Shown here: piece by piece, positions 2,248 to 7,485 of the stretch
Position numbering within the stretch: the stretch's first letter is position 1
Layout of the letters: every line of letters starts with the position of its first letter
NCBI GenBank assembly: GCA_003218975.1
Contig: QHPD01000120.1
Location: 1 to 35,300 of the forward strand
Origin: Verrucomicrobiota bacterium
GTDB taxonomy: Bacteria > Verrucomicrobiota > Verrucomicrobiia > Chthoniobacterales > UBA10450
DNA: 35,300 nucleotides
Reading direction: 5' to 3'
Made by a program: the position numbers and the translations under genes
Notes under the pieces: generated by a model
Seen by the model: the letters and a program-made list of their open reading frames with translations, nothing else
What the model was told of the DNA's origin: nothing
Database searches by the model: none

Positions 2248-3873
2248 GTGAAAACCCTCGCCCCATCAGCACACTCAAAAATTCTTATTCTCGATTTTGG
2301 CTCGCAGTACACGCAGGTGATCGCCAGACGTATCCGCGAGTTGCAGGTGTATTCCGAGATTGCGTCGTTCAACATTTCTGCAAAACAAATCGCCGCTCTT
2401 GCGCCGAATGGAATAATTCTTTCCGGCGGCCCGGCGAGTGTTTATGACAAGGGCGCACCGCAAATTGATACGGAGATTTTTTCGCTAAACATTCCGGTGC
2501 TGGGAATTTGTTACGGGCTGATGCTGATGGCCCATCATCTTGGTGGCCAAGTCGTGTTCACAGGACGACGCGAGTATGGCCCCGGCACGTTGCGAATCAC
2601 GAATCGGTCAGAACTCTTGGAAGGATTAGGCCACCAACTCGACGTCTGGAACAGCCACGGCGATGAGGTCACAGCGTTGCCAAAGGGTTTTCGCGTCGCC
2701 GGGACCACCGAGGGTTGCGACTTCGCAGCGGTGGAAGATCCACAGCGCAAACTCTACGGATTGCAATTTCATCCCGAAGTCGCGCATACGCCGCGTGGCA
2801 AAGAGATCCTGCATAATTTCGTCTATCACATCTGCCAGTGCGCGATGGATTGGACCATGGGCTCGTTCATCGAAGAAGCTTGCGCGCGCATCAGGAAACA
2901 GGTCGGCGACCAAAAAGTGGTGCTCGGTTTGAGCGGCGGTGTGGATTCCTCAGTAACCGCGGCGCTTCTGCATAAAGCGATCGGCGACCAGCTCACCTGC
3001 ATTTTCGTCAATAACGGACTGTTGCGCGCGCGCGAGGAAGAAATCGTGCAACGTGTCTTCGGCGAAAATTTTCACGTCCGTTTAAAATATGTGGACGCAA
3101 GCGAACGCTTTCTCGCGCTGCTCAAGGATGTGACCGATCCTGAAACCAAACGAAAGCTCATCGGCAATGAGTTCATTAAAGTTTTTCAACATGCGACTGA
3201 GGAGTTACTCGAAGAAGACCGAGGAAACGGTGAGCACAGACTCGCCGCAGCGAGTCCGTCCAGTGGCGGACACGGCGGCTACAAGTTTCTCGCTCAGGGC
3301 ACGCTGTATCCGGACGTGATTGAGAGCGTCTCAATCGAGGGCAATCCGGCTCAGGTGATCAAGAGCCATCATAACGTGGGCGGATTACCGGAAAAGATGC
3401 ACTTCGAGCTCGTCGAGCCGGTGCGGCAATTATTTAAAGACGAAGTGCGCCAGGTTGGATTGCAGTTAGGCTTGCCGAAAGAGATCGTTTATCGTCAGCC
3501 GTTCCCGGGGCCGGGCCTCGCGGTTCGCATTCTCGGCGAGGTCACACCTGAGCGATTATCCATCTTGCGGGAGGCGGACACAATCGTACAAAGTGAAATG
3601 GAAGCTGCCGATTGGTATTACAAAGTCTGGCAATCATTCGCCGTCTTGCTTCCGGTGCAATCGGTCGGCGTTATGGGCGACCAGCGCACCTACGAAAACA
3701 CCATCGCGTTGCGCATTGTGGAAAGTCGGGACGGCATGACCGCGGATTGGGTGCGCATCCCCTACGAATTGCTTGCGCGCATTTCGAATCGCATCTGCAA
3801 CGAAGTCAAAGGCGTCAACCGCGTTGTTTTCGATGTCTCCAGTAAACCACCCAGCACCATCGAGTGGGAGTGA
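2248..3873 (+). CDS. guaA: GMP synthase (glutamine-hydrolysing)
   Basis: Cytoplasmic enzyme that converts XMP, ATP and glutamine to GMP. The N-terminal class I glutamine amidotransferase has nucleophile Cys88 in GICYG and the His175/Glu177 pair in QFHPEV. The ATP-pyrophosphatase P-loop SGGVDSS is at 229-235, and the dimerisation domain ends in the family tail KPPSTIEWE. It starts at GTG 2248, 3 bases after the upstream lipoprotein. The 541-aa length exceeds E. coli GuaA because about 20 extra residues (about 325-345, Gly/Ala/Ser-rich) lie between the EELLEE helix and KFLAQGT. The core of that insert is encoded by a palindromic repeat at 3239-3271, in frame. All catalytic motifs are intact, so the enzyme should be active. 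Confidence 0.97.
3239..3271. repeat. Palindromic repeat inserted in frame in guaA
   Basis: GACTCGC (3239-3245) and GCGAGTC (3250-3256) form a perfect 7-bp hairpin. GTCCG (3254-3258) and CGGAC (3267-3271) form a second hairpin that shares three bases with the first, so the two are alternatives. The same two-hairpin design with closely similar bases recurs at 33208-33243 in non-coding DNA. It encodes about residues 331-342 of GuaA and coincides with an insertion relative to other GMP synthases. Confidence 0.75.
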
Positions 3874-3893: not shown

Positions 3894-5423
3894 CTAATCG
3901 ATCTGCGCGATGGCGCTCATGAATTCGGCGAAGTCTTTGCCATTGCGCGCCGCGTGATTGAGCGCGTCGAGCCGCGGATCCATCGCCGCCTCGGGTAGAG
4001 CGATGCGCCGTGCTTGCGATCCGTTTGCAAAAACAATTTCGTCCCACTGGATCGAGGAAATCTCATCGTTGAAACGCGCCACCGCACGGCCGCGGAAAAA
4101 TGCGCGCGTAGTTTCCGGCGGGTTAAAAATCGACGCCTTGATTTCCTCTTCGCTGGTGAAACGGCGCATCAAGTTTTTGCGCACCAACTCGTAATACAAG
4201 CCCCGCTCAAGATCGACATTGTGATATTCGAGATCGATTGATTGCAGCCACGGGTCGCTCCAGGAAAGTTTTTCTTCCTCTTGTAGTGTGTTCAGCAAGA
4301 ATTTCTTCGCCGCCCAATCGACGCGCTCCCGCGCCAACATCACATCGCGCTCCAGATCGTTGAGGACACTTTCCCATTCGCGCAAAACCCATTGTCGCTC
4401 TTCGCTCACGCCCGCCTGAGACGGGTGGATCTTGCTGGCCGCCTGCAAGTAAATACGCTGCACCTCAATGGCCGAAATTTTCCGGCCATCTGTAAGTTCG
4501 ATGATCCAATCGTGGGTTTGATCGCGGCTAATTGATTTGTTCGCATGAATCGGCTGGGCGATCTCGAGTTGCGGCGCCTCCCCGCGTTCAATCAGGTCGA
4601 GCACCAGCGAGGTCGTGCCGATTTTCATGGCGGTTGCCCATTCGCTCATGTTCGAGTCTCCCAAGATGAGGTGGAAACGGCGAAACCGGCTCGCGTCGGC
4701 ATGCGGCTCGTCACGCGTGTTGATCAGCGGGCGGCGATTCATGGTGTCGATGCTGACCACCACACTAAAAAAATCCGCGCGTTGCGAAATTTGATAGACG
4801 CCTGGCTCACCCGATGCGCTCTCTGCTTCGACGCCCAACTTGCCCGCACCTGCGAAAATCTGGCGTGTAATGAGAAACGGTAGGATCCCGGCGACGATCC
4901 GGTCCCATGCGACGTTGCGACGCACCAGGTAATTGTCGTGACAGCCGTAACTGTGCCCGACGAAGTCGGTGTTATTTTTGTAAAGCCGAACTTCGCGGTT
5001 GGGCGGCAACTTTTGGTTCCGACGCCGCGCGCACTCGGCGAGGATCCGCTCGCCAGCTTTCTCTTGTGCGACTATTTGCCGGAGCGTCGTGCACTCCGGC
5101 GTAGAATACTCCGGATGCGCGTGATCGTTGTAAAAGCGGGCGCCGTTCGAAAGGACAAGATCACTTTTTATTTCCTCAAAACTGAGGGTGCGATTTTTAT
5201 CAATCTCGTAATAAGCTGACTCATCCGTGTCCTGAAGCAGTTCACGTGCGCGAAAACCGCGAGCGTCGAGATGCGGATCCTCCAGCTCATAGTCCCACTT
5301 CATCAGCGCGCCGTGCTCAGTATAGCGCCGCACTAACTCGATGGATTCGGCCACAACATCAACCATGTCCGCGCCGCTAACGGTGATGCCGTATTCGGTC
5401 TCAAGTCCGAAGACGCGTTTCAT
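3894..5423 (-). CDS. dop: Dop-like deamidase/depupylase of the Pup-ligase superfamily
   Basis: A 509-aa glutamine-synthetase-fold enzyme that in the Pup system deamidates the C-terminal Gln of the modifier and removes it from substrates. Visible signatures are GLETEYG (Glu8, Glu10), the Dop-loop region WDYELEDPHLDARGF after residue 43, NDHAHPEYSTPEC with Asp100 at the catalytic aspartate position, YKNNTD, INTRDEPHAD and GDSNMSE. The Dop-loop and HAHPEYS favour Dop over the ligase PafA, which lacks that loop. The gene starts 25 bases after the ATPase stop and is convergent with guaA (20-base gap). No pafA, pup/UBact or 20S genes are present in the window. Confidence 0.93.
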   Translation of the reverse strand: MKRVFGLETEYGITVSGADMVDVVAESIELVRRYTEHGALMKWDYELEDPHLDARGFRARELLQDTDESAYYEIDKNRTLSFEEIKSDLVLSNGARFYNDHAHPEYSTPECTTLRQIVAQEKAGERILAECARRRNQKLPPNREVRLYKNNTDFVGHSYGCHDNYLVRRNVAWDRIVAGILPFLITRQIFAGAGKLGVEAESASGEPGVYQISQRADFFSVVVSIDTMNRRPLINTRDEPHADASRFRRFHLILGDSNMSEWATAMKIGTTSLVLDLIERGEAPQLEIAQPIHANKSISRDQTHDWIIELTDGRKISAIEVQRIYLQAASKIHPSQAGVSEERQWVLREWESVLNDLERDVMLARERVDWAAKKFLLNTLQEEEKLSWSDPWLQSIDLEYHNVDLERGLYYELVRKNLMRRFTSEEEIKASIFNPPETTRAFFRGRAVARFNDEISSIQWDEIVFANGSQARRIALPEAAMDPRLDALNHAARNGKDFAEFMSAIAQID

Positions 5424-5448
5424 CGAGAAAAGAGATGGAGCATCCGCG

Positions 5449-7131
5449 TTAAATTACGCCAGAAGGCCGCTTGGCCGAATCGCTCGTAGGTCGGATTGGC
5501 GAAATTTTGACGACGTTTTCCGGATCGTAATCAATCAGCTTGAGCCAGTCTTCGGTGATGTCAGTAGTGGGGAAAATGTCATTCTCCACGTACTCGGCGT
5601 TGAAGGCGAGTTGCAGATCGGTTTCCCGAATCCCTTCCTCCTGCTGGGTAGCAATAGCTCGTTTAATCGCCAGGGCTTTCGCCCTCTCGACAATCGAGGC
5701 AACGATCGCGCCGCTGATGAGGTCGCTGCGGTAAAGGGTCTCTTTGCGGCCGCTGCGCAATGTCACCTCCAGAAATTTGTTTTCATCGCGGCGCGTGAAT
5801 TGCCAGTCCACAAACCGTTCGATCAAACGCTCGATCGAGGGGCCGATTCCATCGGCTTCTTTCGCGAGGACACCGTCGTAGGGCAAATCGTCGGTGAGAT
5901 AAATGCGGTAGATTTCTCGCGAGCCTTGTTTGTCCGGGCGATTGACTTTGATTTTTCGGTCAATCCGGCCAGGACGCAAAATCGCAGGGTCGATTAGGTC
6001 GGCGCGATTGGACGCAAGAATAATCACTACGTCGTTGAGCGAATCGATTCCGTCCATTTCCGAGCAAAACATCGGGACAAGCGTGGAAAGAATATTTGAG
6101 TAACGCGACGCACGCCGCGTGCCAAGAATCGATTCGGCTTCGTCGATAAAAAGGAATGGCATAAAACCTTCGCTGCGTTTCTCCCGAGCGGTGGCAAAAA
6201 TTTCGCGCACCATTCTTTCCGACTCGCCCACCCACATGTTCAGGATCTCCGGCCCCTTCACGTGCATGAAATATTCATGCATCTCGGCGCCGGTTTTTTC
6301 GCGGAGTTGCCTGGTCAAGTTATAGGCGGTCGCTTTGCCGATGAGCGTCTTTCCGCAGCCCGGCGGACCATACAGCAAAAAACCTTTCGGCGTGGCGTGC
6401 TGAAATTTCTTGAAAAGATCGACATGCAACAGCGGAAGCTCGATCGCGTCCTTGATTGCTTGAAGCGCGGTCTCCTGGCCACCGACCTTTTCCCATGGCA
6501 GCTCCGGCACATTGTCGAGGTAATACTCCTGAGATTTTGTGCTGGAGAGCATCTCAAGCGCCATCCGGTAATTCGAGTCAACGCGGACCTCGTCGCCGGA
6601 TTTCAAGGTGGAATGTGCCAGATCGGCCGATCGCTGGAGCACCATCGAGTGCAATCCGTGCTCCGAGCCAACACGCAACCGATCCTTGCCCAGAATCTCT
6701 GTGATTTTTGTCACCGGTCCCGCTGTCTCAAATCCGAGATCGCCGACAATGACGAAGGCCTCGTTGACGAGCACGCGTGTGCCTTTTTTCAATTTTGCCA
6801 GCGGAATGCGCGGATCGACATTGCAATAGTAATCGGCGCCTCCCACCACAATATGCGCGGTGTCTTTCGAAGTGGCGCCGAGAAACGTGCCGATCCGGTT
6901 CGCGGGCGACGTCACTTTCTTAATGACTTCCTCAAGCTTTTCGATCATTCGGCGCGCGTCGACCATTGTCTCCTGCTGGTCGTAAATTTGCGGGCGCAAC
7001 TCCAGAAGCTCGCGTCGCGTCGGATCGCCTGGAGGCAATGATGCGATCACACGATCAAATGAATCGAGAAGATTATCCGGACCCGCGTCCCCTTCCCCGC
7101 CCTGCAATCCTTCGCTGCGCTCGTCGCTCAT
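5449..7131 (-). CDS. ARC/Mpa-type proteasomal AAA ATPase
   Basis: A hexameric AAA unfoldase that normally recognises pupylated proteins by its N-terminal coiled coil and feeds a 20S proteasome. Regions in order: acidic N-terminus, coiled coil about 45-75 (RRMIEKLEEVIKK), tandem OB folds about 76-200, Walker A GPPGCGKT (255-262), pore-loop region with MWVGESE (about 299), Walker B LFIDE (327-331), and the SNRADLIDPAILRPGRIDR second-region motif with arginine fingers. I use ATG 7131 (560 aa) rather than TTG 7146. The C-terminus ends in RPSGVI and lacks the GQYL/HbYX-like tail with a penultimate Tyr that Mpa/ARC uses to dock on the 20S core. It is the first gene of an operon with dop. Confidence 0.93.
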   Translation of the reverse strand: MSDERSEGLQGGEGDAGPDNLLDSFDRVIASLPPGDPTRRELLELRPQIYDQQETMVDARRMIEKLEEVIKKVTSPANRIGTFLGATSKDTAHIVVGGADYYCNVDPRIPLAKLKKGTRVLVNEAFVIVGDLGFETAGPVTKITEILGKDRLRVGSEHGLHSMVLQRSADLAHSTLKSGDEVRVDSNYRMALEMLSSTKSQEYYLDNVPELPWEKVGGQETALQAIKDAIELPLLHVDLFKKFQHATPKGFLLYGPPGCGKTLIGKATAYNLTRQLREKTGAEMHEYFMHVKGPEILNMWVGESERMVREIFATAREKRSEGFMPFLFIDEAESILGTRRASRYSNILSTLVPMFCSEMDGIDSLNDVVIILASNRADLIDPAILRPGRIDRKIKVNRPDKQGSREIYRIYLTDDLPYDGVLAKEADGIGPSIERLIERFVDWQFTRRDENKFLEVTLRSGRKETLYRSDLISGAIVASIVERAKALAIKRAIATQQEEGIRETDLQLAFNAEYVENDIFPTTDITEDWLKLIDYDPENVVKISPIRPTSDSAKRPSGVI

Positions 7132-7164
7132 TCTGGTTTGGGTCAATCCGCCGAACCAAGTGCC

Positions 7165-7411: not shown

Positions 7412-7485
7412 GGAGCCTTAGCTCAATTGGTTAGAGCGCCGCCCTGTCACGGCGGAGGTTGCGGGTTCGAGCCCCGTAGGCTCCG
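7412..7485 (+). tRNA. tRNA-Asp (GTC)
   Basis: The acceptor stem GGAGCCT (7412-7418) pairs with AGGCTCC (7478-7484), followed by discriminator G. The D arm, the anticodon loop CTGTCAC (anticodon GTC) and a GGTTCGAGCC T arm are all present. CCA is not encoded. No attachment-site duplication was noticed downstream. Confidence 0.97.

Follow-up and report, generated by a model that had tools for sequence, protein, structure and literature searches.

Dispersed UBact-proteasome genes and an ATPase with a tyrosine-free, putative docking tail in a Verrucomicrobiota genome related to Candidatus Udaeobacter

Results

The window analyzed here, a stretch of 35,300 nucleotides, is the entire contig C123 of a Verrucomicrobiota genome near Ca. 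Udaeobacter (3.06 Mb in 165 contigs, 96.9% complete), whose close relatives include Ca. Udaeobacter and further Chthoniobacterales soil genomes. On its minus strand it contains a gene for Dop, the deamidase/depupylase of the UBact pathway, with its Dop loop (3894..5423), and, separated from it by 25 bases and on the same strand, the gene for an ARC/Mpa-type proteasomal AAA+ ATPase (5449..7131). As had been described from the sequence alone, and as confirmed by the open reading frames and ARAGORN, the pair is flanked by guaA and a tRNA gene. The guaA reading frame (GMP synthase; 2248..3873, plus strand) is convergent to dop, and tRNA-Asp(gtc) (7412..7485, plus strand) lies on the other side; both are neighbours outside the system. 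In relatives, guaA adjoins the Dop gene in 22 of the 42 loci with room downstream. Genome-wide family searches placed no modifier or 20S gene on contig C123. The earlier statement that a modifier and a proteasome are lacking locally therefore holds for this contig, but not for the genome, about which the absence tells nothing because the window is only one contig.

The Dop protein comprises 509 amino acids and matches PF03136 (Pup_ligase) with 548 bits. It scores higher against the Dop model TIGR03688 (480 bits) than against the PafA model TIGR03686 (399 bits), and among solved structures Dop is its best match (E=2.5e-118). In the alignment to solved Dop the motifs GLETEYG and NDHAHPEYSTPE are retained, in agreement with the sequence-only reading, by which the catalytic residues are intact.

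The ATPase matches the proteasome ATPase model TIGR03689 with 458 bits, and both proteasomal OB domains as well as the AAA domain were found (PF17758, PF16450, PF00004). Its start is the ATG at 7131, the open reading frame tool having placed it at a TTG at 7146. The nearest solved relative is M. tuberculosis Mpa (E about 1e-103), and the architecture consists of a coiled coil, tandem OB domains, the AAA domain, beta-grasp elements and a free C-terminal tail; the predicted model contains the coiled coil, the OB strands and a disordered C-terminus. The Walker A motif GPPGCGKT (6346..6369, minus strand), which is invariant in an alignment of 35 sequences, and the Walker B motif FLFIDE are both present, and here too the earlier description proved correct. 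Dop and the ATPase, like the PafA and the 20S alpha and beta subunits described below, score under the respective NCBIfam equivalog cut-offs, which for Dop and the ATPase appear to be tuned to actinobacteria.

The whole genome was searched for PafA, a modifier of 50-80 amino acids and 20S subunits, and all of these were found. UBact is encoded on contig C122 (C122:57605-57757) and scores 82.6-83.8 bits, where the curated cut-off is 35 (NCBIfam NF033388); it has 58 amino acids and a C-terminus reading ...KRYRQRTGQ (VDPNQSKRYRQRTGQ). It is directly followed downstream by the genes for a 20S beta subunit (PrcB; 100 bits in the genome family search and 170 bits against TIGR03690, 20S_bact_beta) and then for a divergent 20S alpha subunit (PrcA; 78 bits against TIGR03691, 20S_bact_alpha), for which the nearest solved chains are M. 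tuberculosis PrcB and PrcA, respectively. A second PF03136 protein (416 bits) is encoded at C101:11-1324, where its gene begins the contig. This protein scores 325 bits with the PafA model versus 292 bits with the Dop model, below the cut-off; the Dop loop is absent from it, and its best match among solved structures is PafA. On these sequence features it is best read as PafA. Modifier, 20S alpha and beta subunits and a separate PafA-type ligase are hence encoded in the same genome as ARC and Dop, as one of the options raised earlier had foreseen, and the genes do not form one cluster here but are distributed over three contigs. Most UBact proteins end in RTGQ, but some, those of close relatives included, end in RTGE (L005, L040-L068, L234, L243-L246); the requirement for Dop to deamidate the modifier therefore differs between genomes.

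A single cluster is usual for UBact-proteasome genes, although it is not essential. The order ARC-Dop-UBact-PrcB-PrcA-PafA was found as one cluster at loci L155 and L160 as well as in four further Verrucomicrobiota genomes that are complete or nearly so. These four resemble Methylacidiphilaceae, a family name that we infer for them, and three of them are single contigs. This single cluster is the ancestral arrangement, which has been split in the Udaeobacter family, where ARC and Dop remain together, UBact, PrcB and PrcA remain together, and PafA lies apart. In the near-complete genomes G070 and G220 the ARC-Dop and UBact-PrcB-PrcA groups are located on different contigs of 367-846 kb. As these groups sit on separate large contigs, the split is real and no effect of assembly fragmentation. 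In genome G039, roughly 4 kb separate PafA from the UBact group, and the two are on opposite strands. An even more dispersed arrangement is seen in G050 (L234-L238), with UBact-PrcB, PrcA, Dop, ARC and PafA over five contigs, and G056 encodes two different 20S beta subunits on separate contigs (L239, L240).

Co-occurrence was tallied from the search tables for 58 genomes, ranging from genus to order level. Each of the 17 genomes of at least 90% completeness that carry the ATPase also has 20S genes, and ARC was found without any 20S match in three genomes only, which are 75-84% complete. Twelve order-level genomes without the ATPase were also without UBact and Dop/PafA. Furthermore, one order-level relative that is 96% complete (L233, G057:C66:6000-22000) carries UBact-PrcB-PrcA and no detectable ARC, Dop or PafA, which may reflect a true loss or an assembly gap.

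A penultimate tyrosine is the accepted hallmark of ATPase-ring docking on the 20S proteasome and of its opening. The window ATPase ends in ...KRPSGVI; as noted earlier, it does not carry a tail of the GQYL type. Its last residues, RPSGVI (5452..5469, minus strand), form a tyrosine-free tail with a terminal [V/I/M][I/V] motif that is a putative docking element. Among 75 distinct 60-residue C-termini of ATPase homologues, 72 end in [V/I/M][I/V], and none has a penultimate tyrosine as in GQYL or HbYX. Of the remaining three, L126 runs into the end of its contig, L115 is a fusion, and L151/L080 is truncated. Column entropy amounts to 0.93 and 0.70 bits at the last two positions and to about 3 bits in the linker before them; that the last residues are conserved although the linker in front of them drifts indicates that the tip of the tail is under selection. 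The same type of tail is shared by ATPases encoded inside complete proteasome clusters, e.g. SGVV, SAVV and RQVV. Hence, the ATPase does have a conserved hydrophobic tail, although of another type, and the earlier claim that a docking tail is missing is probably incorrect.

Two of the exceptional ends can be described further. At L115:2027-5101, ARC and Dop form one reading frame of 1025 amino acids. The ARC tail is lost at the junction, as are the initial Dop residues with the GLETEY stretch, and a deletion or assembly artefact is therefore likelier than a working fusion. At L151:1069-2690, ARC is cut after ...FPTTDI and ends in THTQHLT, so that the last beta strand and the tail are gone.

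In the structure of M. tuberculosis Mpa with the 20S core, the tail tyrosine forms a bond with Arg26 or Glu119 of the alpha subunit, Lys52 binds the terminal carboxylate in one of two binding modes, and the backbone of the tail glycine (Gly606) meets Asp144 of the neighbouring alpha subunit (PMC9599533). Verrucomicrobial alpha subunits are divergent overall. In an alignment of 65 of them, some rows of which are near-identical or repeated, the equivalents of both K52 and D144 are kept in 65/65 sequences; the position of Arg26 is occupied by S, P, G, T, L or A (R/K in 0/65) and that of Glu119 by L or I (65/65). The alpha subunit of the actinobacterium Nonomuraea, taken for comparison, where the ATPase tail is GQYL, keeps R26, K52, E119, D144 and S146. 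Plasmid records contained two actinobacterial ARCs with GQYL and one matching alpha subunit, and a scan of viral contigs for ARCs of other phyla gave distant AAA proteins only. A model of the alpha subunit computed from a two-row alignment (L155, L160) had a mean pLDDT of 41.5 and was excluded from the analysis. According to the comparison of tail and pocket, the tyrosine contact has been lost on both sides jointly, and for the carboxylate contact the alpha partner is retained. This covariation is one contrast between Actinomycetota and Verrucomicrobiota sequences and no proof of co-evolution.

Discussion

Overall, we propose, with a probability of roughly 85%, that the window pair belongs to an ordinary, complete UBact-proteasome pathway that is dispersed in three loci and in which docking tail and pocket have been rewired to do without the tyrosine. 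By homology, Dop in this Ca. Udaeobacter-like organism would deamidate UBact from ...RTGQ to ...RTGE and would also cleave UBact off substrates, and the C101 PafA would ligate it to lysines. The ARC ring would then capture the UBact-tagged proteins, unfold them and thread them into the 20S core built from the C122-encoded PrcB and PrcA. For this, ARC would dock by a tail ending in Val/Ile-Ile/Val in place of the GQYL tyrosine, and this tail may also open the gate. The terminal carboxylate would be expected at the invariant alpha lysine (K52 in M. tuberculosis) and the backbone around position -4 of the tail at the invariant aspartate (D144), with the tyrosine-holding R26 and E119 replaced by small or hydrophobic residues. 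Given the tail type in 72 members and the pocket, tyrosine-free docking is the likeliest mode. That the terminal [V/I/M][I/V] seats in the alpha pocket, and that co-evolution has led both tail and core to depart from the HbYX/GQYL rule, we regard as somewhat better than an even bet.

The tail could instead be non-docking, ARC binding the alpha ring mainly via the beta-grasp or other surfaces and the tip being kept, e.g., for ring stability. The beta-grasp hairpin of M. tuberculosis Mpa makes critical contacts to the 20S core (PMC9599533), Cpa binds the core without a tyrosine motif (PMC6017811), and the tail is disordered in the predicted model. However, strong conservation of the two terminal residues after a variable linker and invariance of the carboxylate-binding lysine and its neighbouring aspartate speak for a docking role, and we consider a non-docking tail rather unlikely.

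A further option from the sequence-only reading, that ARC and Dop unfold or release UBact-tagged proteins without a 20S core, is compatible with the sequence in that tagging may have proteasome-independent roles. ARC and Dop are moreover alone at the window locus and paired in most relatives. Nevertheless, UBact and 20S genes lie in the same genome, the deeper relatives have all six genes in a single cluster, and the co-occurrence of ARC with 20S genes across genomes, without exception in the 17 most complete ATPase carriers, argues against a core-free role. Such a role is thus very improbable, and an orphan status of the ARC-Dop pair, with neither modifier nor core, was rejected, since both were found by the whole-genome search: the complete set is encoded elsewhere, and homologues that coexist with 20S genes also end without the usual tail. 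Finally, a frameshift, truncation or assembly error as the origin of the unusual tail was rejected as next to impossible: damaged ATPase ends do occur, as at L115 and L151/L080, but 72 distinct homologues share this type of ending, and they come from independent assemblies, single-contig genomes included.

The proposed pathway shares UBact, Dop, a PafA-type ligase, ARC and the 20S alpha and beta subunits with the UBact-proteasome system of Gram-negative bacteria (NF033388), from whose single cluster the Udaeobacter family differs by having three loci. With the Pup-proteasome of Actinomycetota (M. tuberculosis Mpa, PrcA/PrcB, PafA and Dop) it has in common the enzyme set, the ATPase architecture and the equivalents of Lys52 and Asp144, whereas GQYL is replaced by x-V/I-I/V, R26 and E119 are exchanged, and UBact takes the place of Pup. 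Binding of the 20S core through the C-terminal residue without a penultimate aromatic, as proposed for the tail, is known from the 11S/PA28 activators (PMC6017811), which, unlike ARC, are not ATPases and open the gate through activation loops.

Pup-type conjugation in Verrucomicrobia is already known since 2008: in the portion of the account by Iyer et al. (2008, PMC2588565) considered here, Pup-conjugation genes are reported for Methylacidiphilum together with proteasome genes in the neighbourhood. The phylum and the pathway are the same; the genes form a single cluster there and are split here. Nothing about the ATPase tail was found in that portion. Within a limited body of open-access literature we found no publication on Udaeobacter proteasomes and no description of the dispersed arrangement or of a tyrosine-free tail with an altered pocket. 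Thus, the UBact-proteasome system is known, and the tail and pocket variant seems to be undescribed.

Our results indicate that the absence of a GQYL motif and of neighbouring 20S genes is an unsafe criterion for calling an ATPase an orphan. If the proposed docking mode is true, the Verrucomicrobiota, in which the tyrosine and its socket partners have been replaced and the carboxylate-lysine contact has been kept, would represent a natural experiment that parts docking from gate opening.
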